Source: an uncultured Verrucomicrobiota bacterium
GTDB taxonomy: Bacteria > Verrucomicrobiota > Verrucomicrobiia > Methylacidiphilales > UBA1321
Reading direction: 5' to 3'
DNA: 64,000 nucleotides
NCBI GenBank assembly: GCA_903863295.1
Contig: CAIPBM010000171.1
Coordinates: forward strand, 1 to 64,000
Shown: positions 9,148 through 28,836 of the stretch, in pieces
Position numbering within the stretch: position 1 is the stretch's first letter
Layout: each line of letters opens with the position of its first letter
The notes under the pieces: model-generated
Database searches by the model: none
Told to the model about the DNA's origin: nothing
The model's input: the letters and a program-made list of their open reading frames with translations, nothing else
Program-made: the position numbers and the translations under genes

Positions 9148-11457
9148 TCATTCGCGGAAGGAGCACGCCAGTTCATCCACCAGCTTCTTGCGGATGAGGG
9201 CATGGGCGTCGTTGACCTCCTTCTCTGTAAGTGTCTTGTCCGCAGCGCGATAGGTGAGGGCATAGGCCAGCGACTTGTGGTCGGCGGGGATTTTCTCCCC
9301 CTTCGGATCGCGGAAGAGGTCGAAGAGGCGGACGCTCTCCAGATTCGGCGCCTTGGCCTGACGAATAACTTCTTCCACCCGGGCTTGCGGAACTGACTTC
9401 GGCAGAACGATCGCGACATCGCGACGGCTCGGCGGGAAGGCGGGTACCGGGACATATCTCTCCGGTTGGGGCTTACGGGCCAACCACGAATCGAGGTCGA
9501 TCTCGGCGTAGTAGACCGGAACCTTGATGCCGTGGATTTTTAGCTCAGTGGGAGTTATTTGCTCCGAAGATAGGACATCTTTAACGTTAACTCCTGAATT
9601 TTTCGTCAGTAAATCCAATAGCCCCGTCAAATCGTAAACATCGGAGGCACGTTCGCCTTGATACCAAGCGGCATCAGCCCCCAGGCCTGCGACCAGAAGC
9701 CCCAGCCGTATCGGTTCATGGGTGCTTTGATCCCGCTTTTCGTAGACTCGGCCCACTTCAAACAAGCGGAGCTGGGCCACGCCTCGCGCCAAATTCTTCG
9801 CCGCAACCTGGAGCAGCGAGGTCTTGAGGTGTTGGCGCAGATGGGTCTGGAGCTCGCTGAGCGGATTCGCCATTTCAATCGCGGTTTCGCCCGTGGCGAA
9901 ACGTCGCTCAATGAGGGCGTCCGTGACGCATTCGTCCCAACCCCGCGCGGCGAGAACCCGCCGGACGCGCAACAGTCGGTCATGGGCGCGATCCGCATCG
10001 GTCTCCGGATGGAGCCCCGTCGTGACCCGCGACGGGATACCGTCCAAGCCGTGGAGCCGCGCGATTTCCTCAATGAGATCGACTTCACGCGAAAGGTCGT
10101 CGCGGAAGGTGGGCGGCTGCCAGACGTTTTCGTCAGGTTGAGTAGCCGGAAGCTTGGTGCAGCCGAGTCGTGTCAGATTTTCCTCAATCGTGGCGGCAGG
10201 AATCTGGACGCCAAGCAGACTCTCGATCCGCTTCGAGTGAAGCAGAATCGGTCGGCGCGCTTCAGGTGGCGCACCCGCAATCGCTGAGGTCGAGGCGACG
10301 GTCGCTCCGGCAATTTCCACCAGCAACGTCAGGGCACGATCACGGGCAGCCAGCAGCGCACCCGGATCGACCCGGCGCTCATAGCGATAGGAGGAGTCCG
10401 ACATCAGGCCCAGACGGCGACTGGTCCGGCGCACCGTGGCGGGCAGAAACCACGCGGCTTCCAACACCACTTCCGTGGTCGTGTCGGTCACCCCCGTCAG
10501 CTTGCCGCCCATCACGCCCGCGATGGCCACCGGCCCTTGCGCATCGGCGATGACGAGATCATCGGCGAGGAGCGCGTAGGTCTTGTCGTCCAGTGCTTCC
10601 AGCTTTTCTCCCGCGCGGGCGCGGCGGACGTCGATGACGTTCCCGGCCAGCTTCGCCGCATCAAAGGCGTGGAGCGGTTGGCCGGTCTCGAACAACACGA
10701 AATTGGTGATATCGACCACGTTGTTGATCGGTCGATGCCCGGTCGATTCAATCGCTTCCTGCAGCCATTTCGGGCTGGGGCCGACCTTCACGTTGATCAA
10801 ATGCGTCGCCGTATAATAAGGACCCAAATCAGGCGCGTCGAGCTGGGCAGTATACTTGGGCTCCGCTTCCGGAAAAGCGATGGCCGCCGTTGGCAAGGCT
10901 TTAAGTGTCCCTGCGCCGATGGCCGCGATCTCCCGCGCGATGCCGCGATACGAAAGGAGGTCGGGTCGGTTGGACGTGATCTCCACTTCAAAGACCGTGT
11001 CGCCGGGCTGGTACTTGGAGAAGACTTCGCCGACGGGTGCATCAACGGGCAGGATGAGCAGACCCTCGGCGTCCTCAGCCAACGCCAGTTCCTTGGCGGA
11101 ACAAAGCATGCCCTGGGAGAGTTCGCCGCGAAGCTTCGATTCCTTGATCACGAAATCGCCCGGCAATCGCGCACCCGGCAGGGCGAGGGGAACCTTGTCG
11201 TTGTCCTTGTAATTCTTCGCGCCACAGACGATCTGGCGGATGCCCTTGCCATCATTCACCTGGCAAACGCGCAGGCGGTCGGCATTCGGATGGGGGACCG
11301 AGGAAAGTATCTGCGCCACCACGACGTGCGGGCTATCGACGCCGGTGACGGCGACATGCTCGACTTCCGTGCCCGCCAACGTGAGGCGATCAAGCATTTC
11401 CGGCACGGGAACGGTGAGGTCAATATAGTGGCTGAGCCAGCGGAGCGAGAATTTCAT
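9148..11457 (-). CDS. pheT: Phenylalanine--tRNA ligase beta subunit
   Basis: A 769-aa PheRS beta subunit of normal length. It has an N-terminal tRNA-binding (EMAP/OB) domain (VVVAQILSSVPHPNADRLRVC), the B3/4 editing domain (RPINNVVDITNFVLFETGQPLHAFD), a B5 domain and a catalytic-like core with SSYRYERRVDP. The C-terminal FDX-ACB anticodon-binding domain has PAFPPSRRDVAIVLP. With PheS it forms the alpha2-beta2 enzyme that charges tRNA-Phe, and the B3/4 domain clears mischarged Tyr. pheS is not adjacent, so the two subunit genes are separated here. The start is the ATG at 11457. Confidence 0.96.
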   Translation of the reverse strand: MKFSLRWLSHYIDLTVPVPEMLDRLTLAGTEVEHVAVTGVDSPHVVVAQILSSVPHPNADRLRVCQVNDGKGIRQIVCGAKNYKDNDKVPLALPGARLPGDFVIKESKLRGELSQGMLCSAKELALAEDAEGLLILPVDAPVGEVFSKYQPGDTVFEVEITSNRPDLLSYRGIAREIAAIGAGTLKALPTAAIAFPEAEPKYTAQLDAPDLGPYYTATHLINVKVGPSPKWLQEAIESTGHRPINNVVDITNFVLFETGQPLHAFDAAKLAGNVIDVRRARAGEKLEALDDKTYALLADDLVIADAQGPVAIAGVMGGKLTGVTDTTTEVVLEAAWFLPATVRRTSRRLGLMSDSSYRYERRVDPGALLAARDRALTLLVEIAGATVASTSAIAGAPPEARRPILLHSKRIESLLGVQIPAATIEENLTRLGCTKLPATQPDENVWQPPTFRDDLSREVDLIEEIARLHGLDGIPSRVTTGLHPETDADRAHDRLLRVRRVLAARGWDECVTDALIERRFATGETAIEMANPLSELQTHLRQHLKTSLLQVAAKNLARGVAQLRLFEVGRVYEKRDQSTHEPIRLGLLVAGLGADAAWYQGERASDVYDLTGLLDLLTKNSGVNVKDVLSSEQITPTELKIHGIKVPVYYAEIDLDSWLARKPQPERYVPVPAFPPSRRDVAIVLPKSVPQARVEEVIRQAKAPNLESVRLFDLFRDPKGEKIPADHKSLAYALTYRAADKTLTEKEVNDAHALIRKKLVDELACSFRE

Positions 11458-11573
11458 AACAAAAAAGGGAGCCGGAGTATGCGCGATTTTGGGACGAAGT
11501 GTTAGTCTTAAGTGCGGGCCCGGCCCGGAGAAAAGATGAACGCAGGGAACGGGGTGGTGTCGAACCTTTTCGT

Positions 11574-11912
11574 ATGCCCCCGCTTCCTCCCGAGATGACC
11601 GCTCCGCCCGCGGCGGAAAAAATGCTCAAATTTCTCCTGCAAGCCACGCAGGACGGCGACTACGACGCCTTCATCCTCGCCGGCACCGACCGCTTCCAGC
11701 AGGGAATCTCCAAGTCGATGTTTTACCGCGTGAGCGAACAGGTCGCCTCCCGCCTCAAGGCCGGACACACCACCGAATTTCTGACCGAGATCAAACAATG
11801 CGAGCACGGCGTCTATCTCTGGAAGCTAAGCTTCAGCGACAAGGGAAACGAATTCATCGCGCGGCTGGCCATGACCCGGGACGGAAAAGTCGCCGGGTTC
11901 ATGCTCAACTAG
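11574..11912 (+). CDS. Hypothetical protein, possible DUF3887/NTF2-like fold
   Basis: A 112-aa frame from ATG 11574 (MPPLPPEM). It has a helix-rich start (AAEKMLKFLLQATQDGDYDAFI) and strands ending GNEFIARLAMTRDGKVAGFML. The final lines look like the end of a small cone-shaped NTF2/DUF3887-type domain (a residue pattern of action plus GKVAGFxL), but that is a structural guess. A GTG at 11499 would add 25 residues that look non-coding; ATG 11595 is another option. No signal peptide is seen. It is divergent from pheT, and tRNA-Cys follows 75 bp downstream. Confidence 0.6.
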   Translation: MPPLPPEMTAPPAAEKMLKFLLQATQDGDYDAFILAGTDRFQQGISKSMFYRVSEQVASRLKAGHTTEFLTEIKQCEHGVYLWKLSFSDKGNEFIARLAMTRDGKVAGFMLN

Positions 11913-11987
11913 CCGTGCGCTTCAGGGCCGGGAACTTTTGCTTGGCGACCACTCGCAGTCTGAGGTACGCTAAGCGATGCCTTTATC

Positions 11988-12059
11988 GGCGGGGTAGCCA
12001 AGTGGTAAGGCGCGGCTCTGCAAAAGCTGTATGCGTCGGTTCGATTCCGACCCTCGCCT
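11988..12059 (+). tRNA. tRNA-Cys (GCA)
   Basis: A 72-nt cloverleaf. The 5' strand GGCGGGG pairs with 3' CCTCGCC (one G-T pair), with discriminator T as usual for cysteine. The D-loop is AGCCAAGTGGTAAGG. The anticodon stem CGGCT/AGCTG carries loop CTGCAAA with anticodon GCA at 12020-12022. The T-arm is GTCGG-TTCGATT-CCGAC. CCA is not encoded. An integrase gene starts 200 bp downstream in the same direction, so the 3' end of this tRNA is the probable attachment site of the following element. Confidence 0.95.
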
Positions 12060-12258
12060 CTCTTTTCTAAGCTGTTCTTAGACAATGAGGGCATCGGTTA
12101 GAAACCGCCCAAAACGAGCCAAAAAGGCCCAACTGTGTCCAAAAGTGAGTCTAGTTATTCTGGATTTCGCTAACTGGCACATACTTGGGTAATGCGGCGG
12201 TTCCTCCCTAACCGGGGGAATTGGGTCGTTGGTAATTTCTCACTACCGGAGAAATAAC

Positions 12259-13341
12259 ATGAAACCAACCCATCGCCTCATTCGCCGCGCCGGCATCTAC
12301 TACGCCTTTGAGACTGCCACGAGCAAACGTGAAAGTTTGGGCACGCGCGACAAGACCGAGGCCACCCAGCTCCTCGCCGCCAAGATGCAGTCCCTCTTGC
12401 AGCCGATTCTCAATTTGCGAATGGCGAAAGTCTATCTTTCCGGCGCCGACCCGCAGGCGCTTAAACGAACCTGGCGTGATGTCCTCAAGTCGATGATTGA
12501 GTCCAAGCGTGGAGACAACAAGGCGCGCTGGGCCAGAATGGATAGGCATCGTCCACTCGCCTCGCTTTGGGACAAAATCCTAATTCAAACGACTGCCGAG
12601 GACTTCATGCGGTGTTTGAACGCTGGTAGTGTCACGACCAATAAGTTTTTGCGGATTATGCGCAATTACGCCTTGGATTTCGGTTGGTTGCCCCACCCCC
12701 TTATTCCGACACGACATTGGCCTGCGGTAAAATACGGCGACAAGCGCGCCATCACTGCCAGCGAGCATGCTCAGATCATTGCTCGCGAAACCAACCCCGA
12801 ACGCAGAGCTTTTTATGAACTGGCCTGGTTTACGGGTGCGGCCCAGACCGACCTGGCCAACCTCACATCTGATTCCATCCGGTGGAACGACAGGACGATT
12901 TCCTTCTCCCGGCAAAAAACGGGAACGCCGGTAGTGCAATTCTTTGGCGCCGAAACGGAACGCGTGTTGCGTACGCTCCCGCCAAGGGGGCCGCTCTTTC
13001 CTTATCTCAAAACCGTCCGCGCCTCGGATCGGGCCACCGAGTTCAAGCAACGCTGCGAGGGTCTGGGAATCAAAGGCGCCACCCTGCACAGCTACCGGTA
13101 CGCTTGGGCGGAACGAGCGGCGAAGTGCGGCTACCCCGAGCGTCACGCTATGAAGGCCTTGGGGCATGCCAGCAAGAGCATTGCCCAAGCTTACGCAAAA
13201 CGCGCTGAAGTCATCGTCCCGTCTCTCGAGGAATTCGAAAAAGCGACGCCGGAAAAGAAGATTATTTCTTTTGTTAATATTCCCCGTTCAGTCACGCAAA
13301 CTGAGGAGGGTCGGTGCGCCGCTGGAGAAAGCCAGCCCTAA
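12259..13341 (+). CDS. Tyrosine recombinase/integrase with unusual box I
   Basis: A 360-aa phage-type integrase. The N-terminal part (about 1-150) is the arm/core-binding region and the C-terminal part is catalytic. The box II motif HSYRYAWA gives the His-x-x-Arg pair, LGHASKS the second His, and AYAKRA the nucleophilic Tyr. The beta-hairpin Lys is probably in RQKTGTP. In box I the usual TGxRxxEL reads TGAAQTDL, so the first catalytic Arg appears to be Ala. ATG 12259 is preceded by GGAGAAA; the longer frame from 12229 lacks such a site. Its position just after tRNA-Cys suggests it integrated this element. Its 3' end overlaps the convergent gene at 13292 by 50 bp. Confidence 0.88.
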   Translation: MKPTHRLIRRAGIYYAFETATSKRESLGTRDKTEATQLLAAKMQSLLQPILNLRMAKVYLSGADPQALKRTWRDVLKSMIESKRGDNKARWARMDRHRPLASLWDKILIQTTAEDFMRCLNAGSVTTNKFLRIMRNYALDFGWLPHPLIPTRHWPAVKYGDKRAITASEHAQIIARETNPERRAFYELAWFTGAAQTDLANLTSDSIRWNDRTISFSRQKTGTPVVQFFGAETERVLRTLPPRGPLFPYLKTVRASDRATEFKQRCEGLGIKGATLHSYRYAWAERAAKCGYPERHAMKALGHASKSIAQAYAKRAEVIVPSLEEFEKATPEKKIISFVNIPRSVTQTEEGRCAAGESQP

Positions 13342-14197
13342 GATTCTCTGGTAAGGGGTAACGATGGCCTTTCTGTAGCCTTTCTTCGGCACCCTTTTCG
13401 ACAAGCGCGAGACGGCCTTCCTGGATGGCGTACTTGAATTGCTCGGTGGGGATACTGTAATTGGCAGAGAACCAAGTCCGATACTGATCCAGCTTCGACT
13501 TCTCCGCTTCTGTGAGCGTCTGCTGGCGATGGACATGGCGATACAATTTTCGGAAAAGGGCCTTGATGGCAAAATATTCACTTATTGGCACAAGGACCCG
13601 CATAACTTTCTTATAGGCCTCATCCGTAAGATCCTTGATTTCGGCAGCGCATGCTTGAGCCCACTGTTCAGGTGTAAATTGGCCATTGTATTTCTCTTTG
13701 CACTTCTTCCAAGCGAGATCACAAGCTACTCCGCTATCGCGAGAGATCGTCTTGACGAAGTCATGCCATTCTTGTCGGAGTTCCAATAGTTGGGCGAATT
13801 CTGGAAGCACAAGATTCCCAGTCGCCGTTACGGGTGTGCCTGGAACCATATCGTCGATGTGATAGTGGGGTCCGTCGGAGGCATTCGCTACTTTATGAAT
13901 ATCAATCGCATCTTGGCCCTCAAGAGTACCAGCCGTTTTTTTGGAACCTCCATACAAGTACATATCTGCGAATTCTGTTTTCCCTTTTCCTCCCAACTTC
14001 TTGCCATCCATCGGCGGATTTTTCTGGCTCCAAGTAAACGGAGTCTTTTCTTGGATTATTTTCATCAACTCTTGCGGATTGGAGGCGCTCAAGGTTTGAA
14101 AGTGACGTGGAGTCACCTGAACAGCTTCTGCCAAGGCGGCAGCCTTAATGCCCAAAGCGCGGCAAAGACGGTTCACAGGATTGTTGGGATCGTTCAC
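13292..14197 (-). CDS. Unknown protein with N-terminal HTH-like segment
   Basis: A 301-aa protein I do not recognise. Residues 8-36 (RLCRALGIKAAALAEAVQV) look like a helix-turn-helix of the XRE type. The middle is polar with YLYGGSKKTAGT. The C-terminal half is strongly helical and basic (YFAIKALFRKLYRHVHRQQ). No signal peptide or membrane segment. It is transcribed towards the integrase and divergently from the small HTH gene at 14303, with short palindromes between. That layout is typical of a repressor/regulator pair on a mobile element, but its role is inference. Confidence 0.65.
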   Translation of the reverse strand: MNDPNNPVNRLCRALGIKAAALAEAVQVTPRHFQTLSASNPQELMKIIQEKTPFTWSQKNPPMDGKKLGGKGKTEFADMYLYGGSKKTAGTLEGQDAIDIHKVANASDGPHYHIDDMVPGTPVTATGNLVLPEFAQLLELRQEWHDFVKTISRDSGVACDLAWKKCKEKYNGQFTPEQWAQACAAEIKDLTDEAYKKVMRVLVPISEYFAIKALFRKLYRHVHRQQTLTEAEKSKLDQYRTWFSANYSIPTEQFKYAIQEGRLALVEKGAEERLQKGHRYPLPENLRAGFLQRRTDPPQFA

Positions 14198-14272
14198 TCA
14201 TAACGACTCGTTCTGATGATCGCAAAGGTCAAGAACTTTCAATCGCAGCGCTGATATTGGCGCCAGGTGAAT

Positions 14273-14287
14273 GAGAGCTCTCGAGAG
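14273..14287. promoter_or_regulatory. Overlapping palindromes between divergent genes, possible operator
   Basis: GAGAGCTCTCGAGAG contains two overlapping perfect 10-bp palindromes, GAGAGCTCTC and CTCTCGAGAG. It sits between the divergent start codons at 14197 and 14303. The position suits an operator for one of the two HTH proteins it separates. No binding evidence exists. Confidence 0.4.
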
Positions 14288-14302
14288 ACTATCAGTTCTC
14301 CC

Positions 14303-14554
14303 ATGAAAATGCTTCCCGCACGATTGACGGCTGAACAAGTTGCCGAAAGCCTCGGCTTCAAGGCACACGACGTACCCACTCTGGTTCGTGAACGACTGCT
14401 CGTCCCTCTCGGAAAGCCACGTCAACAAAGCGTCAAGTATTTCGCTCAGATCGATATTGAGGGAAAGGCTAAGGATGTGAAGTGGCTGGCCAAGGCCACA
14501 GACGCCATTTACAGGCATTGGCGGGAATCTCGTAGCGGGGAGAACTTGCCGTGA
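14303..14554 (+). CDS. Small helix-turn-helix protein, excisionase/MerR-like
   Basis: An 83-aa frame from ATG 14303 (alternative ATG 14309). LTAEQVAESLGFKAHDVPTL is a winged-helix/excisionase-like recognition motif, followed by VRERLLVPLGKP and a strand containing VKYFAQIDIEG. I recall similar small DNA-binding proteins as frequent on Verrucomicrobiota mobile elements. An upstream in-frame ATG at 14267 would overlap the palindromes and is less likely. It is the first gene of an operon whose members overlap by 4 bp, so it may regulate the operon or direct excision. Confidence 0.65.
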   Translation: MKMLPARLTAEQVAESLGFKAHDVPTLVRERLLVPLGKPRQQSVKYFAQIDIEGKAKDVKWLAKATDAIYRHWRESRSGENLP

Positions 14555-14790
14555 AATTCCTAGGCGAGCCCCCCGCCTTACTTGAATGGATCCCACTTTC
14601 ACCCGCGCACAATGAGGAAATCAGGCAAGCGGCCGAAGCAGCCGATATGACAGCAGATGAACTAATCGCCCAGTGGCTTGCGGAAAAAATTGAGACAAGC
14701 GCGCATTGCGAACTGACTAAAGGCATTGAACCCCGGTTGGTGAACGAACCGGAAGATGGGGCACCTGACCACAACGGAGTTCCAAAATGA
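14551..14790 (+). CDS. Small acidic hypothetical protein
   Basis: A 79-aa protein starting with GTG inside the GTGA overlap with the upstream stop, and ending in an ATGA overlap with the next gene. It contains a helical segment EEIRQAAEAADMTADELIAQWLAEKIE that resembles the C-terminal part of ribbon-helix-helix or antitoxin-like small proteins. No toxin partner is evident. Function unknown; translational coupling on both sides supports it as a real gene. Confidence 0.65.
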   Translation: MKFLGEPPALLEWIPLSPAHNEEIRQAAEAADMTADELIAQWLAEKIETSAHCELTKGIEPRLVNEPEDGAPDHNGVPK

Positions 14791-15194
14791 AATCAGCCTG
14801 CAAAGCCAAAGGGTATTCGGGAGCGAAGAAGGGCATGCACCACGGCCCGGGTTCATCGAAACTCGGAGCGCAGGGGCCCTGGATCCTGGAATGCCTGAAC
14901 AAGAAAATCCCGTATCGTACGATTCTTCGATTACTAAAAGACACGTACGGGAAGGATGCGTCGCTCAGCACCTTGCAAAGCTTCATCAAACGACGCGATG
15001 AGGATATGCAGCTGCCTCAAAGGTCCTCAAAAAAACGACCCCGTTCAGTAAACTCAGGGAAAGCCACCGAACAACTTGCCTCCACCACCCCGATGGGCGG
15101 TGATGTGTTTGAAGCGGCGCGACGTCAAGCGCAGATCAACACAACCAACAAAGCCAAAACCAAACACATTGACGTGTCGAAAGTATATATATGA
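14787..15194 (+). CDS. Small basic protein in the TraK position
   Basis: A 135-aa, very basic protein with a Lys/Arg/Ser-rich start (KSACKAKGYSGAKKG). A central predicted helical unit, WILECLNKKIPYRTILRLL, is followed by a Lys-rich linker. It overlaps the neighbours on both sides by 4 bp. I cannot assign a family from sequence alone. Size, charge and place directly before a ParA-type ATPase and a membrane coiled-coil protein match the order traK-traL-traM of IncP plasmids, where TraK is a small basic oriT-binding protein. That comparison rests on synteny and is inference. Confidence 0.6.
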   Translation: MKSACKAKGYSGAKKGMHHGPGSSKLGAQGPWILECLNKKIPYRTILRLLKDTYGKDASLSTLQSFIKRRDEDMQLPQRSSKKRPRSVNSGKATEQLASTTPMGGDVFEAARRQAQINTTNKAKTKHIDVSKVYI

Positions 15195-16009
15195 AAAACC
15201 AACCCATTAACTATCGTGAAATCAAAAGAAAGAGCCGCTTTATCGCCTCTGGATGCGGCGGCGTAGGTGGCGTCGGAAAAACCACCATCGCGGTCGCCAT
15301 TGCTGATTATCTCCGTCAACGCCGCATTCCCGTTCGGCTTTTCGACGCCGAAAACGAACCCAAGCCTCACGGGCGCCTCAAGAATTATTTTCCTGAGGCT
15401 CAGGTAATCGACATTCACTCCAAATCCAGCCTCGACGAGGTAGCCCGTTCGGCAGTTCACGATAAGGTTCTCACCTTGGTCGATCTACCGGCGGGTGCGG
15501 GGCCGGAACTTCTCGAATGGATCAAGGGTCCGATTCGGGCGTTCCAGCGTCAGAACGTCCCGATGACGCTCGTGTCTCTGCTCTCCTCCGCCCCGCAAAC
15601 GCTCACCTGCGTACTTCGCTGGGTGCTTGCGCTAGATGAGTTCACTGCGGGGGGCGCCAAGATCGACCACTTGCTCACCTTAAACCACCGCGATCCCGGA
15701 CTCTTTAGCCATCTGGAGTCCGAGGCAGGCAAGGCCTTTCTGGAGACCTATAAACCCGGAATCATCCATTTGGCGGGCCGCGATCCCAACATTTACGCGA
15801 TGTTGGAGGGGAAGGATCTGTCGCCGGTGACAGCCTTGGAGCTGTTCCGGGCGGCTGACACCGATCAGAGCGCCCGAGACAGGCTCGGCAAGCTCGACGA
15901 CCCCGTCACCATGTCGCATATCGAGGAAGATGTGGACCAAATCTCCCAAGAGTTCGATAAGGAAATTCACCGTCTGCTCCCGGAGGCTGATGACAGCACC
16001 CAAGTCTGA
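15191..16009 (+). CDS. ParA/MinD-type P-loop ATPase, TraL-like
   Basis: A 272-aa ATPase. The deviant Walker A GGVGGVGKTT lies at about residues 21-30, the switch strand LFDAENEP follows, and Walker B-like TLVDLPAGAG is at about 97-106. The family moves or positions DNA and protein cargo (ParA, MinD, MipZ, conjugation proteins TraL/MobD). It overlaps the upstream gene by 4 bp, and the next gene begins inside its 3' end with a good GGAGG site. No ParB gene or parS match is seen, which argues for the transfer-associated TraL type over a partition system, though this is not proven. Confidence 0.78.
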   Translation: MKNQPINYREIKRKSRFIASGCGGVGGVGKTTIAVAIADYLRQRRIPVRLFDAENEPKPHGRLKNYFPEAQVIDIHSKSSLDEVARSAVHDKVLTLVDLPAGAGPELLEWIKGPIRAFQRQNVPMTLVSLLSSAPQTLTCVLRWVLALDEFTAGGAKIDHLLTLNHRDPGLFSHLESEAGKAFLETYKPGIIHLAGRDPNIYAMLEGKDLSPVTALELFRAADTDQSARDRLGKLDDPVTMSHIEEDVDQISQEFDKEIHRLLPEADDSTQV

Positions 16010-16670
16010 CGGGCAGAACCACGACCGGTGGTACTCCGACTGGTTTAGTGTTGTTTGTGTCTACCTGAATGACGCGCAGGCACTTCTATTCGCCAAATCC
16101 CTCAATTATCTTTCCCGGCAGCGGTCCAATCCCAACGTTCTGTCCGCGATCATCAATTCGCTGGGGCTGCTCACCCTTGTCCTGCACGGGATGGCGCACC
16201 AGGTCACCTCCTTGACTGAGGTTACTACTCGGGGCCATGCACAGACCCGGGACTTGATCTCCAAGTTGGATCAAGTGGCTCAGCTATTACATGAGATTAG
16301 GACCTCTCTCACTGAACTCACACTGACCCTGAATCGCCTGACTGAGAAAATAACCAAGGCGAAGATCCCTTGGGGCAAGGCCGTTCTAATTGCCGTAGTC
16401 AGTTCCTTTATCAGCACAGGGATATTGATTAATGCTGATCACCTTCAGTTTTTGAGGATACCCGATGCCAAGGATGTCGAAATGCGAGACCTGCTTGATG
16501 CAAAAGAACGATTCAGGAAGGCAACCATCAAATTGAAAAATGAAAATGTTGCCCTGGAATTCGAATTGAACAACCGCAAGGAAGTCGATCAAACGGCTTT
16601 AACCCGAGCATACAACGCGGGTTACTCAAAGGCGGCCTCCGACATTCAAAAGAAGTTCGAGGGGCAGTAG
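15990..16670 (+). CDS. Membrane-anchored coiled-coil protein, TraM-position
   Basis: A 226-aa protein from ATG 15990, preceded by GGAGG and overlapping the ParA-type gene. The N-terminal half is soluble. A long heptad-like stretch (SKLDQVAQLLHEIRTSLTEL) precedes one membrane helix (AVLIAVVSSFISTGILI, about 135-151). A charged helical C-terminal part follows (LLDAKERFRKATIKLKNENV). The same frame opens at 15930, but the start there has no ribosome site. Unknown family; a membrane partner of the ATPase is plausible, as with TraM in IncP-type transfer regions. Confidence 0.68.
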   Translation: MTAPKSDGQNHDRWYSDWFSVVCVYLNDAQALLFAKSLNYLSRQRSNPNVLSAIINSLGLLTLVLHGMAHQVTSLTEVTTRGHAQTRDLISKLDQVAQLLHEIRTSLTELTLTLNRLTEKITKAKIPWGKAVLIAVVSSFISTGILINADHLQFLRIPDAKDVEMRDLLDAKERFRKATIKLKNENVALEFELNNRKEVDQTALTRAYNAGYSKAASDIQKKFEGQ

Positions 16671-17078
16671 TAATCTTCCCTGTAAAACCAACAGATATGG
16701 ATGTCCAATACCTAGTTATGACGCAATTAACGCCTATTTTGAAGCCGTTCGAATATGTTCGAATTCAATTTGGCCTTCAGGCTGGAGTAATTCGAACAAA
16801 TTCGAACATATTGCCTGAAAAGGCCGTCATGATGTTCAGAAGTGCCGAGCAAGATGGATGCCCCGCATCTTCTTTCGTCGCCTGGTGGCGACGTTTGGGT
16901 ATATGCCTCGACATATACCCCCCACGTTATGGCGTGTCGCCTGCCCAAATTCGCGCCATCTCATACCAAGCGCACAGGCCAAAGCTGCTGCCACAGCGGT
17001 CGCCCAGAGCTGCCGAATCATCGAATTGAAGTGGCCGGCGCAATAGCAAACCAAGGCAGACGAGAAGGACCTCTGATC
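16671..17078. other. 408-bp intergenic region of the element, rich in inverted repeats
   Basis: No convincing gene. Frames at 16697-17029 and the upstream extension of the 17079 gene cross it, but both encode low-complexity, Cys/His-scattered sequence that simply reads through palindromes. The region holds four separate inverted repeats between 16747 and 16920 (see next entry) and then the ribosome site AGAAGGAC before ATG 17079. Confidence 0.6.
16747..16920. repeat. Cluster of interlocked inverted repeats, candidate origin or DNA-protein nucleation site
   Basis: IR-A: GTTCGAATATGTTCGAAT (16747-16764) and ATTCGAACAAATTCGAAC (16790-16807) are inverted with 17 of 18 matches. Each arm itself holds two GTTCGAA boxes exactly 10 bp apart. 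IR-B: GGCCTTCAGGC (16772-16782), inside the loop of A, pairs with GCCTGAAAAGGCC (16813-16825), outside A, so A and B interlock. IR-C: CGTCGCC-tggt-GGCGACG (16876-16893), perfect 7-bp arms. IR-D: GGGTATATG-cctcga-CATATACCC (16897-16920), perfect 9-bp arms. This density and helical phasing suit an origin of transfer or replication, a partition site, or a structured RNA. Confidence 0.75.
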
Positions 17079-18590
17079 ATGACTCCGTCCCAAAGCGAAA
17101 TGTTTGCTCAAAAGGTGAAAGCACTGTCCAAGCATACCGGCCTTTCCGAAGCCAAAGTAACTGAGTGCCTCATCCATCAGTTGGAGCTCATAACCAGCGA
17201 GTGGGACCTTGCCTCCACAGGCAGATCCCTCAGCGAGGTCATCGAGGCTTCACGTCAGGATCGCAAAAGCGCCGCACTGAAAGTCGGGGAACTGAACTTG
17301 AAAAGCGAGAACCTCAGGCAACGCCTTCAGATTAGCAACGACGTGGTAGCATCCCTAGCGATCTCATTCAGAGAGCATCTGGAAATTGTTCCCGTCATCC
17401 CCGAACTCATGACCGATGCGGATTCGGTCGAAATGGGCGCACCCTTCATCGACAGTGTTGGCCGGATCATTTCAGGGAAACATCAGTATAGAAACCCGAA
17501 TTCCCAAGCTGACCACGCTGGCATTGTCACCCATTGCGGATCGACTTCCATGCCTGTATGGCGAAGCAAATACTCAGTTATTCCTAAAACCGACCGTCCT
17601 AACTTCGATATTTTAGAAATCACAACTTTTGCCCAAGAAGTAGGGCGTAAGCTGTGGGACAAAAGCTATAGCGTCACTGTCGAGAACATTCAGGAATTGG
17701 ATCCGAAAGTCATTGGGTTGGATAGCGATGCGGTTAACAGCGTTTTTTCGAAGCGGAAATATCAAACGCAAAGAAGGGTATGGGAAGTCTTTCTCAACCG
17801 GTTGCGGCGGCTGGCTCGCCACTTTGGCGATCATGAGGAAGCGACCCTGGTCATGGACTTCATGACTGAACGGGAAGACGTCGCGAAGCTATGGGATCGT
17901 TTTGCCGAGGGAAGTGAATCCAGATGGAGACCGCAAAGAAGTATGCCCTGGCACTTTCTTATCCAATTTCCCTATCGCAAGGATTTGCGGAAATCTGATC
18001 CCTTATTAGTGCTTCAGGTCGGTTACCAGCTTTTTAGCAAGCTCACCATTGGGGTTGCGCCTTCAACCGGCTATCGCACCGTCATTAATTCAGCGGATAA
18101 TCGCATGGCCAATCGTATGATGGGTGAACTTATCGCTGGCGTAAGCAAGTGGTTCAATCCCATCTATCTCCTGGTCGATAGCGGCGCCGTGCGCATTAAG
18201 AGCTCCCTCAATCCCAGCATTTCCAGCCCTTTGGAAACGAAAAGACAACGAACCGAAATGCCGATTGACCGTGATAAGGTCGTTGAGGTGATGAGAAAGG
18301 CGGTACCGGACATTGGGGCCGACCCTGAACTGCGCTGGTTTAGATTCAAACGGAATGCCAAAAACTTCAGCGATGGTAATTTTATCCCTTGGCCCCAAGG
18401 TATTGAGCAGAAGACGCGGTCCGGAGTGATCATTGTTGGCCACAAAGATGTCCTTTTTAAGGTGAACCTTTATGACTGGTCGGTGCAGGTTGCCTCACTC
18501 TTGGATCCACACACGGCCAGTGGCATGGTCGCCGCTCATTATCGATACCTCCGAGCAATATATGAACCGAGGGCAACAACAAACTCCTAA
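17079..18590 (+). CDS. Large protein of unknown function on the element
   Basis: A 503-aa protein from ATG 17079 (MTPSQSEMFAQKVKALSKHT) with AGAAGGAC upstream. The N-terminal 110 residues look DNA-binding and helical (TGLSEAKVTECLIHQLELI) with a coiled coil after (VGELNLKSENLRQRL). The C-terminal two thirds are mixed alpha/beta with PWHFLIQFPYRKD and SGVIIVGHKDVLFKVNL. I see no relaxase HUH/His triad, no Walker motif and no known replication-initiator motif. Because palindromic DNA lies directly upstream, an origin-binding or replication role is possible but unsupported by motif. Its last codons overlap the next gene. Confidence 0.7.
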   Translation: MTPSQSEMFAQKVKALSKHTGLSEAKVTECLIHQLELITSEWDLASTGRSLSEVIEASRQDRKSAALKVGELNLKSENLRQRLQISNDVVASLAISFREHLEIVPVIPELMTDADSVEMGAPFIDSVGRIISGKHQYRNPNSQADHAGIVTHCGSTSMPVWRSKYSVIPKTDRPNFDILEITTFAQEVGRKLWDKSYSVTVENIQELDPKVIGLDSDAVNSVFSKRKYQTQRRVWEVFLNRLRRLARHFGDHEEATLVMDFMTEREDVAKLWDRFAEGSESRWRPQRSMPWHFLIQFPYRKDLRKSDPLLVLQVGYQLFSKLTIGVAPSTGYRTVINSADNRMANRMMGELIAGVSKWFNPIYLLVDSGAVRIKSSLNPSISSPLETKRQRTEMPIDRDKVVEVMRKAVPDIGADPELRWFRFKRNAKNFSDGNFIPWPQGIEQKTRSGVIIVGHKDVLFKVNLYDWSVQVASLLDPHTASGMVAAHYRYLRAIYEPRATTNS

Positions 18591-18852
18591 GAGACGTATT
18601 CCCAAAGGTTTTGATAGCGGTCAGGAAGATGGCGTCCTCGGTCGCTCACGGCAAACGGAAGTTGGTGAAAGTGGCGCCATGAGCACCGGCGAAAGAGATA
18701 TGAAATTGGGCATAGCCAAGGCACGGGCTATGGCTTCGCGAGAATTTCCAACGCAGGTGGCGCTGTGGACAGCAATCCGGGAGCGAGTGAAGCCGCGCAG
18801 GAAATTTGGGCCGACTAACAGAAGGATCGCTATAATAAGCTTTCATGAATAA
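18562..18852 (+). CDS. Small basic hypothetical protein
   Basis: A 96-aa frame from ATG 18562 that overlaps the upstream gene by 29 bp. The start MNRGQQQTPKRRIPKGFDSG is polar and basic, and a helical segment GERDMKLGIAKARAMASREF follows. No known domain recognised. The overlap with the upstream gene argues for co-translation. It could be a DNA-binding accessory protein of the element; confidence is limited. Confidence 0.45.
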   Translation: MNRGQQQTPKRRIPKGFDSGQEDGVLGRSRQTEVGESGAMSTGERDMKLGIAKARAMASREFPTQVALWTAIRERVKPRRKFGPTNRRIAIISFHE

Positions 18853-19084
18853 CTGTAACTTTTTTGAAAGATTGAATTTATGGGCTCAGATTTTTTCCTC
18901 CGTCAAAAAATCATTTCGCGGTTTGATTCGGCTGTCGTCAGAGCAGTTTACACTTCTGGCTAGTAGTCAGAAACTTTGGGCCCATCGCTGTACCCGACGG
19001 GTAAGTTTTCCCGCTCTGGACTACAAGAAAGGTCAATGCAATCGAAACAAATTGGAGGCGATCCCAAAGCACCAAATTACCCAA

Positions 19085-19510
19085 ATGATAACTTTGGAGA
19101 TGATGGGTCGCTTGATCCGAAAGTTTTCATCTTTCAATCAATCCAGAAAAGACACTAAAGCGGATGAACTCTTACCGTCTGAAATGGAAGTTGAATCCAC
19201 GGGGCCTCACGTACCTGGGGGGGATGCTAATGGCCGCAATTATGTAGTAACGCTCCTCGACCAGGCGGATAATTCGATTCTCGTGCAATTCGTCAAAGCG
19301 ATGAGAGGTGTCGATGCGGCCAACTACGCCCTTAGTTTTGATGAGGCAGAAAAGGCGAGGGAGGAGGGGTATCAGGTTATCTCCGTCTTTTCCTCGGTTG
19401 ACCTAGACAAGCTGAAACACGACCTCGACGAATTCGGAGGCAAGACTATTGACTACATGGACGCAGACGAGGATACCGCGATTTTGCCGGGAGCCTTCAT
19501 TTCAGATTAA
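19085..19510 (+). CDS. Hypothetical acidic protein, last gene of the element
   Basis: The convincing part of this frame is the C-terminal 110 residues: RNYVVTLLDQADNSILVQFV, then EAEKAREEGYQVISVFSSVD and an acidic end (DYMDADEDTAILPGAFIS). It looks like a small alpha/beta domain. ATG 19085 gives 141 aa; the frame is open to 18845, but that part looks non-coding. A strong inverted repeat that could end transcription follows at 19523. Function unknown. Confidence 0.5.
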   Translation: MITLEMMGRLIRKFSSFNQSRKDTKADELLPSEMEVESTGPHVPGGDANGRNYVVTLLDQADNSILVQFVKAMRGVDAANYALSFDEAEKAREEGYQVISVFSSVDLDKLKHDLDEFGGKTIDYMDADEDTAILPGAFISD

Positions 19511-19522
19511 TCTTCCCTATCT

Positions 19523-19569
19523 GTTCAGTCCCGAAGAGGGTTAGCTTTTGTCAGGAATAGGGACTGAAC
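19523..19569 (+). terminator. Inverted repeat after the last element gene, possible terminator
   Basis: GTTCAGTCCC (19523-19532) and GGGACTGAAC (19560-19569) form a perfect 10-bp stem with a 27-nt loop, 13 bp after the stop at 19510. No U-run follows, so it may be a factor-dependent terminator or another structured site. Confidence 0.45.
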
Positions 19570-19654
19570 GGGCCTTTAATAGCTGCATCCTTTTGATAAT
19601 CAGGAAGGTGAGCGGCTGAGGAGGCTCGAGCTCTCGATTCTAACTCGCGGATGG

Positions 19655-19680
19655 GGAGCGCTGTAAGCTTCTAGCGCTCC
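19655..19680. repeat. Perfect 8-bp hairpin near the right end of the element
   Basis: GGAGCGCT (19655-19662), a 10-nt loop holding AAGCTT, and AGCGCTCC (19673-19680). It follows shortly after TCGATTCTAACTCGC (19634-19648), which resembles the 3' end of tRNA-Cys imperfectly. It could mark the element boundary or terminate transcription. Confidence 0.45.
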
Positions 19681-19791
19681 AACATTATTGTACATTGTCA
19701 ACGCTGTAGACACGGTGGATTGTTAGGAGTTTTGCTAGGACTTTTTGTTAGGACTGAGATAAGATATACAATCCAGGTCGCCCTTCCCGCA

Positions 19792-19986
19792 ATGAGCAAA
19801 GGCACGAACACCCGTAAACACCGTATAAAGGCGTGCATCGCTGACGGACTCGAAATTCAACATCGGTTTCAAGCCGAACCGCTACTCAAAAAAACTGGAC
19901 GTGGCAGCTATACCCGCGAAGCAGTTGCCGAAATCGCTGTCGCCAAGAAAAAGATGGCAAGTTCAAGTTTTGAAATAGTCGAGTGA
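19792..19986 (+). CDS. Small basic hypothetical protein
   Basis: A 64-aa frame from ATG 19792, MSKGTNTRKHRIKACIADGL, then FQAEPLLKKTGRGSYTREAV. The basic helical start and the short G-R-G-S-Y-T-R-x-A-V patch look like a real small protein, possibly nucleic-acid binding. I know no family for it. The frame also opens further upstream at 19720 without better support. It lies alone between the element and the DUF72 relic. Confidence 0.45.
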   Translation: MSKGTNTRKHRIKACIADGLEIQHRFQAEPLLKKTGRGSYTREAVAEIAVAKKKMASSSFEIVE

Positions 19987-20076
19987 AGGCATAAAAATAA
20001 ACTCTCGCTGAAGCCTCCAGTGAGTTGGGTGCCGACGCCTCACGATCATTTCCTCGGCTTCCTTCTTACTTTTCAG

Positions 20077-20510
20077 CTAGAACGCTGAATGAATCGAAGG
20101 TTGTAAAGACTGCCCACATCCAAAAGCCTCCGTTGACCAGCTATTGAACGTATGGGCGACGCCGTGCCGACGAAGCACGTCAAAACATTCCGGCTGCATG
20201 AAATTCTGATTTCTGATCTCAACCGAATAATACCATCCCTTCGGCAACTGGGCAAAGAAGCCATCCAAGGCTTCGACAAACTGAAGTCCTCGCTTCCAAT
20301 CCCTAGAATGAAAATGGCCGAATTCAAAAATTAGGGTGCCAATCTGGTTTTTGTACATCTCGAGCGGTGCGAGAACGCTCGCGATGAAAAGATCTGGATC
20401 AAGTAAGCGGTCATTGATGGTTCCTGCGCGTTTTCCGCAGCGGGGAAGATTGGGGAACTTCCGCACTGTAATATCTTCCGTAACATCGATCGATATCCAG
20501 AAATCAGGCG
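20077..20510 (-). pseudogene. Truncated DUF72 gene (second copy)
   Basis: Minus-strand translation gives SIDVTEDITVRKFPNLPRCG, then TLIFEFGHFHSRDWKRGLQ, PKGWYYSVEIRNQNF and AHTFNSWS. These match the middle of the intact DUF72 protein at 7022 and even more closely the third copy at 60513. Both ends are missing: the N-terminal third stops where the duplicated element begins (20512), and the C-terminal third is replaced after FNSWS by unrelated residues. It sits in the same orientation and same relation to the element as the third copy, so the whole cassette was duplicated and this copy decayed. Confidence 0.85.
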
Positions 20511-20511
20511 C

Positions 20512-20690
20512 TAGCCCCGCAGCACGAAGAGACGCCCCGTCCGGGCGGTCCTGAGCCAGTCGGTTGACTGGACTCGTTTCCCTCTCACAACGCGGGAGCC
20601 GCTGGCTCTTGCGCGCGCATTGAGATCGGGAAAGAGGGGAGAAATGCATTTCCCCATTTAGGGGAAGGCAACAAACCCCAACCAACGAAA
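20512..20690 (+). repeat. Duplicated structured element, copy A
   Basis: The first 68 bp (20512-20579) are nearly identical to 61572-61638. They hold a G/C hairpin (CGCCC/GGGCG) and CCAGTC-ggtt-GACTGG (20556-20571), which extends to GAG/CTC with one bulge. About 90 bp on, a weaker conserved block follows in both copies: a run of G, then AAATGCATTTCC-like sequence, GGGGAAGGCAA and ACAAACCCC. It ends 4-5 bp before the start codon of the downstream unknown protein in both copies, so it may be a 5' leader RNA or a regulatory DNA element. Confidence 0.7.
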
Positions 20691-20694
20691 GATC

Positions 20695-21318
20695 ATGCCT
20701 AAAAAACTCACCACCGACATCACCGTCCTGCACATCGCCGGAACCGATCAAATCAAAGTCTACCTTCCGGCGCAAACGCAATTCCGGTTCGGCGTCATGG
20801 CCGAAAAAACGCGTTTTTTTCTTCAAACGCCGGTCGTCCAAGACTTCAGGATGAAGCAAAGTCGCGCAATCTTTGATGAATGGCAGAACGGCCAAAGGGC
20901 CCTGGATCGGCTGAGAAGCCGCTCCGAGTATCATGTCCTCGGGCTCGAGGAGGCCCGCAACATCCTGAACCTCATCGTCGGTGCCATCTTGTACTGGTAC
21001 CAACTTGGCGATCGGTGGGTTTACACCAGGAGCGTTCTTCAAAACGCGACCCACATGGCGCATCTGCAACTCCAACCATTAAATGCGCTCACTAGCGCGG
21101 AACTCAAAAAGTCGGGTGCTGCCGCCAAATCCTATGAGGAAATTCGGGAAACGATCGGTTCCGACCCGAAGCACTTCTCAATTTTCCAAATGCACCAATG
21201 GTGGATGGAGCTGCGCCGTTTCCGTAGCCGAAATTTGTACATTAAGGATATCGAACGGAAGCTCGGCATCGCGTGCAAACCGTTTAGGTTCGCGTTGAAA
21301 AAACTCCCCAAGCCTTAA
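20695..21318 (+). CDS. Unknown 207-aa protein, paralogue of the 61745 protein
   Basis: A soluble, mixed alpha/beta protein without recognised domain. The N-terminus has short strands (DITVLHIAGTDQIKVYL). The C-terminal half is helical with ALDRLRS, then ARNILNLIVGAILYWYQLGDR and RWVYTRSVL. The protein at 61745 shares ALDRL, RWxxTRxVL and a following L-x-P-L segment at the same spacing. Both are preceded by the same duplicated element and a divergent DUF72 gene, so they are distant paralogues in a repeated cassette. Start ATG 20695. The helical C-terminal region ends RNLYIKDIERKLGI. Function unknown. Confidence 0.7.
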   Translation: MPKKLTTDITVLHIAGTDQIKVYLPAQTQFRFGVMAEKTRFFLQTPVVQDFRMKQSRAIFDEWQNGQRALDRLRSRSEYHVLGLEEARNILNLIVGAILYWYQLGDRWVYTRSVLQNATHMAHLQLQPLNALTSAELKKSGAAAKSYEEIRETIGSDPKHFSIFQMHQWWMELRRFRSRNLYIKDIERKLGIACKPFRFALKKLPKP

Positions 21319-22486
21319 CCGGTAATTGATCGCTAACTTGCAGCCGACGATCCAAATGGGTTGAGACTTGGCAAATTGGGCACCCATTCCGTGGCGATCC
21401 TAACGGATTGCCACGGGGATGAAACATCGTCCACGATGAGCCTCTCAAGGTCGCTTCGTCGTCCCGTCCCAGCTTGCGCAGAACGATGGCCCTCAAATCC
21501 CGAGCCCGAAGATGATCCGAGTTCAAACGTAGCGAGCGGTCGAGGTGATCGAGCGCCGCAGTCCAGTCACGGCAGCAACAATCGATTTCGGCGAGAGCGT
21601 GAAAACCCGCTGCTTGCCATGCCTGATTCCAAGTGGCCTTGTAGAAGGCCGAGTAAGCGTCGTCGTCACGACCAAGATGACGTAGCGTCAGTCCGAGATT
21701 GTAGCAAGGCTCACCGTCGTAGGGATTCGGGTTTCGTTCAGTCAGGCGAATGATGGCGCGTTGAAACCGTTCCTCAACCCGCACGAACTCGCCCCGCCTG
21801 AGATGCCAGAGTCCCAGAGCATTGTTGCACGGGACATCGCCTGGATCGTGCCGCAAGGCTTCGCTCCAATAGGGCTCGGGACTGCGCGTGGCTTGACGAT
21901 ATTGATCGGGGTGTGAGCCGATGAGGCAGATTTCGTCCAACAATGAAATCTCCTGTGGCGCAGACGGTTCGGTGGCGGCCTCCGGTAATGTGGGCTGCTT
22001 CGATTTTATGGGCTGATAAGTAAGCACCTCCCGGCCATCTTGCGTAAGGAGGACGAGTTTCAGATTCATTAGCTGAACCTTTTTCGGCAGATTCACCTTC
22101 CGGGTTAGCGAATGCGCAGGCGTTAGGTCGGCACTCCAAGAACCGATAATACGCCCGGAACTCGATAGTTGAATGGTCGCTTTCTTAAAAATCTCTGTCA
22201 CGTGGACGCCCACGAATGCGGTTCCCTTTTCCACCTACATTGAGATTGATGCTTCCATCGTCGCTTCCTGGGCAGGGCCGATGTCACGAATCGGATACCA
22301 GAATTGGCTCCAAGTTTTGGTCTCACCCGGTTGAAGAAACGAAAAGTCAGGTTGATTGTCGGTAAAGACCCCGGCCATTAACTCGATATACGGTCCATCA
22401 TTTGTCGTAAGATTGCGATCCCAAGCGTAACCAAATTCGTGGTTACCCCACGTCCACTGCTTCTTTCCCGGAGATTCAAGGAGCCC
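21284..22486 (-). pseudogene. Degraded DUF5107/TPR protein gene
   Basis: Read on the minus strand, 22486 down to 22238 encodes the end of a DUF5107 domain (GLLESPGKKQWTWGNHEFGY, FSFLQPGETKTWSQFWYPI). An in-frame TAG at 22235-22237 stops it. The same frame then continues with FVGVHVTEIFKKATIQL and TPR units (CNNALGLWHLRRGEF, PCYNLGLTLRHLGRDDDAY, LDRSLRLNSDHLRARDLRAI) before losing homology near 21450, probably by a frameshift. Intact DUF5107 proteins of this kind are several times longer, with an N-terminal part that is absent here: the homology is cut exactly where a LacI-family tail begins. Confidence 0.8.
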
Positions 22487-22636
22487 CCTGTAACCATCAT
22501 CGATTGGTGCGCCAACCAAATCGACGCTACGGTGGCCCACCTCACGTTAGACTGCCTCACCCATTCGGATCAGTCCGAGCGCATCAGTGCAGTAGAGCCC
22601 CGTTTGATCGAGAGAAACTCCATTCTGAAGCGGTAA
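22475..22636 (+). pseudogene. C-terminal relic of a LacI-family regulator
   Basis: About 54 codons encode FKEPPVTIIDWCANQIDATV and then ERISAVEPRLIERNSILKR. These match the last 55 residues of the intact LacI-family protein at 50173-51222 (FTEPPLTTIDLCARQ, ERMSAVEPRLIERHSVRK). The DNA-binding domain and most of the effector domain are missing. The relic abuts the DUF5107 relic on the other strand within about 10 bp, so a deletion or rearrangement joined two broken genes. Confidence 0.85.
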
Positions 22637-22771
22637 ACGTCGATCGCGTTGCCTTAGTATCAATCTCCTAAGGTTCATTTCTATTATCGATAGTTTGGGG
22701 CGCTTGTTGTCCACATGACCAACTGTGACAAAAACCAGCCCCAAACCCCGGGGCCTTGCTTTGCGTCGAAT

Positions 22772-23764
22772 TTAGACTTTTTCCCATTTGCCGGATTTTG
22801 CGGAGCAATAAGCAGCTTCCATGATGGCTACAGCATCCAGCGTAACCTCGAGGTCTACCTTCAGACCATCTTCAGGAATCTCCTTGCGAATGGCGGCAAC
22901 AAGGCGGTCCATGCGATCAGGATATTTAGGCCCGTTTTTCAAAGGCTTCGTCTCAAGACCCGGGCCTCCAACGACATAGCCGTCGGCGGTATTCCAGATC
23001 GCGGCCTTCTCCCCCAGAATTTCCAATCCTCCGATACCACCTGTCTGTGTCCACGCGGCTGTCAAAGATCCCACCACCCCGCTGACAAATCGCAACTGCG
23101 CCATTCCCCAGTCATCCACCGCTGTATAGTTTGCGCTGTGGTTGCCCATATCTGCCCAAACTTCCTTTACCGGTCCGAAAAGCGTCCGCACCAGATGAAC
23201 CGCATGGGTTCCCATGTCCATGAAGGCACCACCGCCGGAGAGTTCGGGATTCGTGAACCATTGCAAGTCGGGTGAATCAAACCAGCGTCCGTATGCCGCA
23301 TGGTGGGCGTTTACCATTCGAATGCGGGTGATTTTGCCGAGAGCCTGACTCTTAAGCAGCGAAGCAATTCCTGTCATATTTTCCGAAAAGGGATTCATAT
23401 ATCCGCAGAAAACAGGAACAGGATGTTTTGCGAGAAGATTTCGGACTTCCTTCAAGTCCGCAGTGCTTGTGACCAATGGTTTCTCGCAGAAGATCGGCTT
23501 CTCAACGGGCAGCAATTTTTTCAGCAACGGCAGGTGTTGCGTGTTTTCCGCACAGATGACAAAACCATCCACTTCTTTATTCGCCAGCAGCTCGTCAAGA
23601 TTTGCGAAAAACCTGGACTTGGCTAGCTCGGCATAACGTTTTCCACGGTCGGGTATATCATCCCAAACTCCGAAAATTTTCCGACCATCCGCCGCTTTGA
23701 GGGCTTGCTCGATGAAGGGCTTGGTGTGAATATGAGCAGTCGAGACAAAGGCAATGTTTGCCAT
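22772..23764 (-). CDS. Gfo/Idh/MocA family oxidoreductase
   Basis: A 330-aa NAD(P)-dependent sugar or inositol-type dehydrogenase. The N-terminal Rossmann half lacks the classic GxGxxG (it reads AFVSTAHIHTKPF), but the family motif FCEKPLV is present at about 93-99, and PELSGGGAFMDMGTHAVH carries the active-site region. The C-terminal half is the substrate-binding alpha/beta domain. The altered nucleotide loop is known in some members and may mean tight or altered cofactor binding. Its start lies 8 bp after the stop of the second Gfo/Idh gene, so the two form one operon, opposite an AraC regulator. Confidence 0.88.
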   Translation of the reverse strand: MANIAFVSTAHIHTKPFIEQALKAADGRKIFGVWDDIPDRGKRYAELAKSRFFANLDELLANKEVDGFVICAENTQHLPLLKKLLPVEKPIFCEKPLVTSTADLKEVRNLLAKHPVPVFCGYMNPFSENMTGIASLLKSQALGKITRIRMVNAHHAAYGRWFDSPDLQWFTNPELSGGGAFMDMGTHAVHLVRTLFGPVKEVWADMGNHSANYTAVDDWGMAQLRFVSGVVGSLTAAWTQTGGIGGLEILGEKAAIWNTADGYVVGGPGLETKPLKNGPKYPDRMDRLVAAIRKEIPEDGLKVDLEVTLDAVAIMEAAYCSAKSGKWEKV

Positions 23765-23772
23765 AGGGTTCC

Positions 23773-24820: not shown

Positions 24821-24887
24821 GGCTATCCCTTAGCATGGCTCTGATCATCCTTCTTGCACTCGATTGACTCGTATTTACGCTGGGCTG

Positions 24888-25727: not shown

Positions 25728-25905
25728 CTTTAAGACGCTTGTACAGATTCAGACTGTGCTTGGGCCTGCGCCATATTTTATGGCTCCTCTAATCGAATTT
25801 CGGCAAAGTGAATCGAGGAGGATGTTTGGTAAGACGAGCAAAGGTACCAAAGGCTGGGATCTGAGGGCTTCAAGTTTGCCAAACTTCCCATAGACCGACT
25901 TCTAG

Positions 25906-28686: not shown

Positions 28687-28727
28687 GATTGCTTAAGTAG
28701 CTATTATAGCAATTTTAGTCAAATAAA

Positions 28728-28741
28728 TCGGAATGTTCAGA
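28728..28741. promoter_or_regulatory. LacI-type operator 1 (GH39 promoter)
   Basis: TCGGAATGTTCAGA, a near-palindrome sharing 12 of 14 positions with the perfect site at 28837. It covers the -35 zone of the GH39 promoter whose -10 lies at 28703-28708, so binding would block that promoter. See the findings for the four-site set. Confidence 0.6.
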
Positions 28742-28836
28742 TTAATTGACGCTTTGGCTGCGCTATTTTTAGCTCTGAAAGTACTACCTGTAAATTTTTA
28801 CAAACAGATTTTTAGAAAAAGGAACTGCTTGGCATC

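Follow-up and report, generated by a model that had tools for sequence, protein, structure and literature searches.

On plasmid R388, the stbABC operon adjoins the origin of transfer (oriT), and the 9-bp stbDR repeats, arranged as two sets of five, are the binding sites of StbA. StbA is reported to restrain conjugation and StbB to allow it, and the TraK protein of RP4, which binds beside nic, is counted among the StbA homologues (PMC3098194). Another precedent comes from staphylococci, where an smpO gene accompanying a non-cognate oriT is reported to have made it mobilisable by a foreign conjugative plasmid; this case is a precedent for the adaptor role proposed below. Further literature cited comprises PMC4853378, PMC11389934, PMC8136818 and PMC12421886. 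In the literature collection searched, no papers were found that name Methylacidiphilales together with a relaxase. Here we describe a locus from an uncultured member of this order, in which a set of repeats at 16747–16938 is likely to be the oriT of an integrative mobilizable element at a tRNA-Cys gene, with the relaxase supplied in trans.

The window analyzed is a stretch of 64,000 nucleotides from contig C171 (114,765 bp), part of a 4.1-Mb draft genome (G000) in 194 contigs. The element is inserted at tRNA-Cys (11988–12060, plus strand, identified by ARAGORN), the probable attachment site, with its 3′ end at 12041–12076. There follow a tyrosine integrase (12229–13341, plus strand; PF00589, E = 8.9e-10), a 301-aa open reading frame on the opposite strand, a small conserved protein (14267–14554, plus strand), an operon of TraK-like, ParA-like and third genes, the repeats, and a 503-aa protein (17079–18590, plus strand). 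The repeats do lie, as the preliminary description had placed them, between a TraK/L/M-like operon and a large protein of unknown kind. The integrase is 52% identical to that of locus L023 (G006:C160) in a genus mate, where the related integrase gene is preceded by 36 bp that repeat, at 92% identity, the 3′ end of tRNA-Cys and the bases following it; on these two grounds, L023 is the nearest relative seen. The small protein is HTH-like by eye and has tblastn matches of 36–46% in L023 and L024, and none to a known family. An integrase, one of the marks of iOriT elements, is present, together with one att half at tRNA-Cys. A second copy of the tRNA 3′ end was not found on the 114,765 bp. In an empty-site comparison, pheT–tRNA-Cys is kept in relatives and the DNA beyond the tRNA differs, so no right boundary can be set. 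The tRNA-Cys after pheT (window 11988–12060) looks like an insertion hotspot. At the same tRNA-Cys, locus L146 (G006:C80) carries another integrase gene, a relative of the window's at the DNA level.

The repeats themselves are real and far above chance. When one mismatch is tolerated, the longest inverted-repeat arm in 16671–17078 measures 19 nt; none of 200 dinucleotide shuffles of this interval gave an arm longer than 13 nt. Its lag-10 phasing was reached by 1 of 1000 shuffles. When all 64 kb were scanned for repeats phased at 10–11 bp, the top 120-bp stretch was 16674–16793, with a score of 8; the runner-up scored 4. Folded as single-stranded DNA, the region is far more stable than its shuffles (z of −5.5, with 0 of 200 shuffles as stable, and −5.8). 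The region matches itself alone in its own genome.

The preliminary description had counted four inverted repeats in 174 bp. The first, IR-A (16747–16807, no strand assigned), was said to consist of four GTTCGAA boxes in mirrored pairs spaced at 10 bp, and this is what we find: its arms (16747–16765 and 16789–16807) are 19 nt long, 95% complementary and separated by a 23-nt loop, and TTCGAA boxes start at 16748, 16758, 16791 and 16801, forming two 10-bp-spaced pairs that stand face to face. We propose IR-A as the array for an accessory protein. Two perfect short hairpins were also correctly recognised and appear in the DNA fold at 16876–16893 and 16897–16920. Hairpin 1 (16876–16893, plus strand) reads CGTCGCC-TGGT-GGCGACG, with a 7-bp stem and the loop TGGT. 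Hairpin 2 (16891–16927, plus strand) has a perfect 9-bp inner stem at 16897–16920, GGGTATATG-CCTCGA-CATATACCC, which is the part predicted by the fold; possible outer ACGT pairs (16891–16894 with 16924–16927) are our own reading and are absent from the minimum-energy structure. An extra small hairpin, GATGC-CCC-GCATC, can be made out by eye at 16857–16869. The fourth repeat, IR-B (16772–16825, no strand assigned; GGCCTTCAGGC / GCCTGAAAAGGCC), is weaker than had been claimed. Read by eye, GGCCTTCAGGC at 16772–16782 can pair with 16813–16825 only if 2 nt are bulged out, and the fold predicted for the single strand is made up of IR-A and local hairpins, with no interlocked pair; for both reasons we regard IR-B as the weak part of the structure.

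Following the hairpin, and just past the end of the region first delimited, lies a sequence that had been overlooked, TATGGCGTGTC (16928–16938, plus strand). It resembles the nick-like cores of related loci, and we infer that it is a candidate nick site for a MobF relaxase. Cores in relatives, read upstream of TrwC or TraK, fall into three layouts. The first is CTAAGCnnnGCTTAG-nnn-TATTGCGTCTG (L028, L132 and L133, with TATTGCGTCTC in L039), and hairpin variants of it occur in L110, L117 and L118. The second is CCTTGGGCnnTGCCAAGG-(A/G)GAGATGTCT, in L023 and L025 and, in similar form, L127. In the third, a hairpin of 6–7 bp is followed after 1–2 bases by TGGCGTGT, or by AGGCGCGT in L066; it accounts for 10 of the 16 core-plus-stem places listed, at TrwC and TraL loci. 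Six loci (L028, L035, L048, L050, L086 and L117) stayed outside this count since their stem, gap or core differed, and core matches that had no hairpin or probably lay within coding sequence (e.g., L147, L126 and L038) were dropped. The R388 record reads GCGCACCGAAAGGTGCG-TATTGTCTATAG.

A profile was built from the cores of 17 relatives, with the window excluded, and scored on both strands of the 114,765 bp. TATGGCGTGTC at 16928 shares the top score on the contig, 16.15, and is alone among the best 25 in having a hairpin of more than nine pairs directly upstream; of 6000 random contig positions, 0.03% have as long a hairpin within 0–3 nt. These figures, we stress, overstate the case, because scoring came after we had already spotted both the match and the internal-loop hairpin. 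The perfect stem stops at 16920, seven bases short of the core. The succession of hairpin and nick core that characterizes MOBF oriTs of the R388 type is found at 16928, with its outer stem pairs lying outside the minimum-energy fold.

Homologous elements in which the repeats were missing or randomly placed would have spoken against a functional site. In most cases where a TraK-like gene is present, a phased array lies by the nick hairpin; the exceptions are L131, which has none, and L027 and L028, which are weak. The arrays of related elements stand between an operon of the same kind (a small HTH protein, a ParA-like ATPase and a third gene) and a hairpin with a nick-like core, and a TrwC relaxase gene is close by. 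L023, L024 (G009:C13) and L025 (G004:C41) have the order TraK, TraL, TraM, boxes, hairpin, core, TrwC. In L110, L117 and L118, the array and hairpin are upstream of TraK, and in L028, L127, L132 and L133, they lie between divergent TrwC and TraK genes. The preliminary description had offered oriT, replication origin or partition site, and it is oriT that these arrays beside nick hairpins support well. No replication protein was found among ten open reading frames scanned.

To quantify phasing, a score combining lags 10 and 11 was compared with 1000 shuffles for each of 16 intervals, all selected for carrying a TraK-like or StbA gene. A single shuffle reached the score for the window, none for L023, L024, L110, L117, L118, L133 and R46, 3 for R388, 3 for L025, 4 for L127, 9 for L132 and 11 for NAH7; L027 (25) and L028 (55) are weak, and L131 (418) has no array. 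Thirteen of the 16 intervals therefore stand at ≤11 per 1000, three of these being the plasmids R388, R46 and NAH7. The pitch of 10–11 bp recurs among elements whose boxes differ: TTCGAA in L024 and L025, TTCGAGC in L133 and L118, TTCGGGC in L132, TTCCCAC in L023, TTGAAC in L110 and TTCCAGC in L027. An array test was also applied to TrwC loci, of which 20 were scored (a 21st, L086, was dropped, as the pattern was not located). There was no array, with p > 0.1, at L022, L037, L045, L047, L053, L055, L065 and L125, and none at L131 either. Many TrwC loci lacking a recognisable TraK have no phased array, L066 being an exception (p = 0.002); L020 gave p = 0.038. The array thus seems to accompany the TraK-like protein and not TrwC as such, an association seen in a small set. 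From an inspection by eye of recognition-helix residues against box sequence, we draw no link between the two.

The same comparisons bear on a regulatory explanation, in which the boxes are bound by a transcription factor controlling the 503-aa gene or the operon and the hairpins serve as a terminator or mRNA leader. The array does sit in a 408-bp gap between operon and 503-aa gene, and an oriT array can double as an operator, as illustrated by the stbDRs, which are reported to surround the stb promoter (PMC3098194). In relatives, however, the gene that follows is either TrwC or TraK, in either direction, and the array keeps its place next to hairpin and core, so the array is not tied to one target gene. 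In addition, Rfam at gathering thresholds gave the tRNA as its sole match across 11000–30000, and hence none in the hairpins. We consider this regulatory reading very unlikely.

The operon proteins were compared with StbABC. The TraK/StbA-like HTH protein (135 aa; 14787–15194, plus strand), our proposed box binder, was aligned with 14 relatives. Four of the 15 family members match HTH_32 at E values up to 0.1, and the window's own protein matches nothing itself in the HTH family search. Its predicted model has a confident three-helix core at residues 30–74. A fold search returned nothing significant: the best Foldseek E was 4.2, the best Z was 5.1 (LmrR), and StbA did not appear among the matches listed. 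We therefore take from the model its HTH-like secondary structure and nothing more. The best PDB match by sequence was RpoN (E = 0.022). Against a StbA profile (R388/R46/NAH7), the family gave a probability of 56.6% over 52 columns, confined to the HTH part. The TraL/StbB-like ParA-family ATPase (15191–16009, plus strand) matches CbiA (PF01656, E = 4.6e-6, over the cut-off) and was aligned with 6 relatives; its match to the StbB profile is weak (24.8%). The TraM-like third gene (15930–16670, plus strand; start uncertain) encodes a probable membrane segment, judged by eye, and aligns distantly with its relatives (16–20% identity); it has no match to the StbC profile (2.5%).

Of 62 genomes of the order, 20 encode relatives of the ParA-like protein (E ≤ 0.001); searching with the alignment gave matches in 68 of the 384 genomes examined from the class (E ≤ 1e-12), many of them ordinary ParA relatives. 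The alignment worked better than the single TraL sequence, which as a query gave 0 loci in genome contigs and one 23% match in plasmids. No relatives of the ParA-like or 503-aa proteins were found in viral contigs. TrwC (PF08751, the MobF relaxase) occurs in 13 of the 62 genomes of the order. A separate observation concerns family f9 of the order, where L029–L032, L035 and L036 hold a TraK-like and TraL-like pair in a stretch without TrwC; in L030, the pair lies among ordinary chromosomal genes, the contigs of L030–L032 are 1.3–2.4 Mb long, and TrwC is absent throughout genomes G038, G041, G045 and G051. These pairs have perhaps been domesticated.

A ParA-like ATPase, a small DNA-binding protein and phased boxes are also the anatomy of a partition locus, and the repeats could be a centromere-like site at which the HTH protein and the ATPase position or segregate an excised, plasmid-like form, with transfer secondary or absent. 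R388 gives mixed guidance: StbA bound to the stbDRs is reported to be required for stability, whereas StbB is dispensable for it (PMC3098194). The array here adjoins a nick-like hairpin and core, and those of relatives a TrwC gene, features that would be superfluous in a pure partition site. Such a site is in our view unlikely. Given that StbA and the stbDRs serve both functions in R388 (PMC3098194), a partition role alongside transfer is conceivable.

The oriT reading places the relaxase elsewhere. A MOBF oriT of the R388 type has its cognate relaxase in the same element; here, TrwC was not found on contig C171, and none of PF08751, PF03432, PF03135, PF10412 and PF19044 matches on it, which leaves the contig without a relaxase or mating-pair genes. 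The 503-aa protein, which occupies the position of the TrwC relaxase in related elements, has no family match, and a relaxase hidden inside it is thereby unsupported. It was found in none of 59 other relatives (itself aside) and in no plasmids, with one marginal match (E = 0.009) across 384 genomes of the class. The locus could alternatively be what is left, oriT and operon, of an element, once conjugative or mobilizable, that has lost its relaxase and right end and become immobile, and the orphan in the relaxase position and the missing second att copy on the 114,765 bp would fit such decay. The integrase, operon genes, boxes and hairpins are, however, all intact as reading frames or repeats, and the arrangement is not unique: operon and boxes also occur together on G009:C24 (L027), again a contig without TrwC. 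An immobile remnant appears quite improbable. In L027 (5550–8290), this second TraK-TraL-TraM operon is accompanied by the phased boxes CATTCCAGCTT and by a short hairpin with AGATGTCT.

A relaxase acting in trans, which the preliminary description had suggested looking for, is plausible. Five TrwC relaxases are encoded elsewhere in the same genome, on C79, C145, C153, C164 and C177, and the element probably borrows one from other elements in the cell. PF03432 relaxases were not found in the genome. NCBIfam models identify VirB4/TraC-like ATPases (888–908 aa) on C79, C145 and C164, ATPases that were missed by the VirB4 model PF03135, which has no match in the genome; coupling proteins are present on C145 and C164. 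With five TrwC genes, three of them on contigs with VirB4/TraC-like ATPases, the genome is heavily loaded with conjugative elements. Among the candidate helpers, C79 and C145 have the core GGTGGCGTGTC, which has TGGCGTGTC in common with the window, and neither has a recognisable TraK or phased boxes. C177 has a TraK-like protein and boxes, but its core is TATTGCGTCTG. None combines a window-like core with a TraK-like protein and boxes.

In the mechanism that we propose for the oriT, the TraK/StbA-like HTH protein (14787) would bind the four GTTCGAA boxes, one helical turn apart, as two face-to-face pairs. The resulting complex would be brought into position at the secretion apparatus by the ParA-like ATPase (15191), a role that has also been suggested for StbB and VirC1. 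A MobF (TrwC) relaxase would then bind the hairpins and the core TATGGCGTGTC and nick the plus strand. After excision, a co-resident conjugative element would supply this relaxase in trans. We infer box binding, nicking and its strand, excision and the helper from sequence comparison. More tentatively, these loci may belong to a family of MOBF oriTs, spread over Methylacidiphilales and further genomes of the class, whose arrays conserve pitch and layout as their box sequence drifts; each oriT would have an HTH adaptor of its own. For relaxase-less members, the benefit of retaining adaptor, ATPase and boxes would be that a MobF relaxase from another element can be loaded with them onto a hybrid nick core, making the element an adaptor-coded relaxase hijacker.

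If this is true, oriT-only integrative elements could be found in poorly studied phyla by their architecture where oriT sequence similarity fails, the pattern to search for being a StbA/StbB-like pair accompanied by a phased array, a hairpin and a core. The link between segregation and conjugation seen for StbAB of R388 would extend to elements that own no relaxase. The loci would also make up a natural collection with a constant layout but varying adaptor and box sequences, offering a direct test of how oriT specificity evolves.

The repeats had been thought to be of a new type, but their anatomy is that of known MOBF oriTs with a StbA-type array, as in R388. What is new is that an integrative element without a relaxase has retained an adaptor operon and boxes of its own, which makes it a variant and not a new type of origin. 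Like stbABC-stbDR of R388 (and of R46 and NAH7), the locus has a small HTH-type DNA-binding protein, a ParA-like ATPase and a third gene by a MOBF oriT, and its boxes, repeated roughly once per helical turn, lie near a hairpin that is followed by a nick-like sequence. Differences are nevertheless evident. The window has four 7-bp boxes in two inverted pairs at a 10-bp pitch, whereas R388 has two sets of five 9-bp direct repeats at an 11-bp pitch; the array follows the operon here and precedes it in R388; and the third gene is unrelated to StbC by profile, in an element that, unlike R388, has no relaxase. Because box number, pitch, orientation and third gene differ, we describe the locus as working like stbABC-stbDR and do not class it as a member. 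Gene order and gene sizes are also like those of TraK-TraL-TraM and oriT in RP4 (IncP). The RP4 relaxase is of the MOBP class, whereas the window's relatives carry MOBF (TrwC). The iOriT/IME elements and the staphylococcal oriT mimics of pWBG749 with SmpO share with the proposed oriT here the lack of a relaxase of their own, a helper in trans, and an accessory protein that sets specificity together with its sites. SmpO is an RHH protein, whereas the window's TraK-like protein is HTH. Compared with these systems, the window's element is distinguished by integration at a tRNA gene, a MOBF-type core and a three-gene adaptor operon with a ParA-like ATPase.
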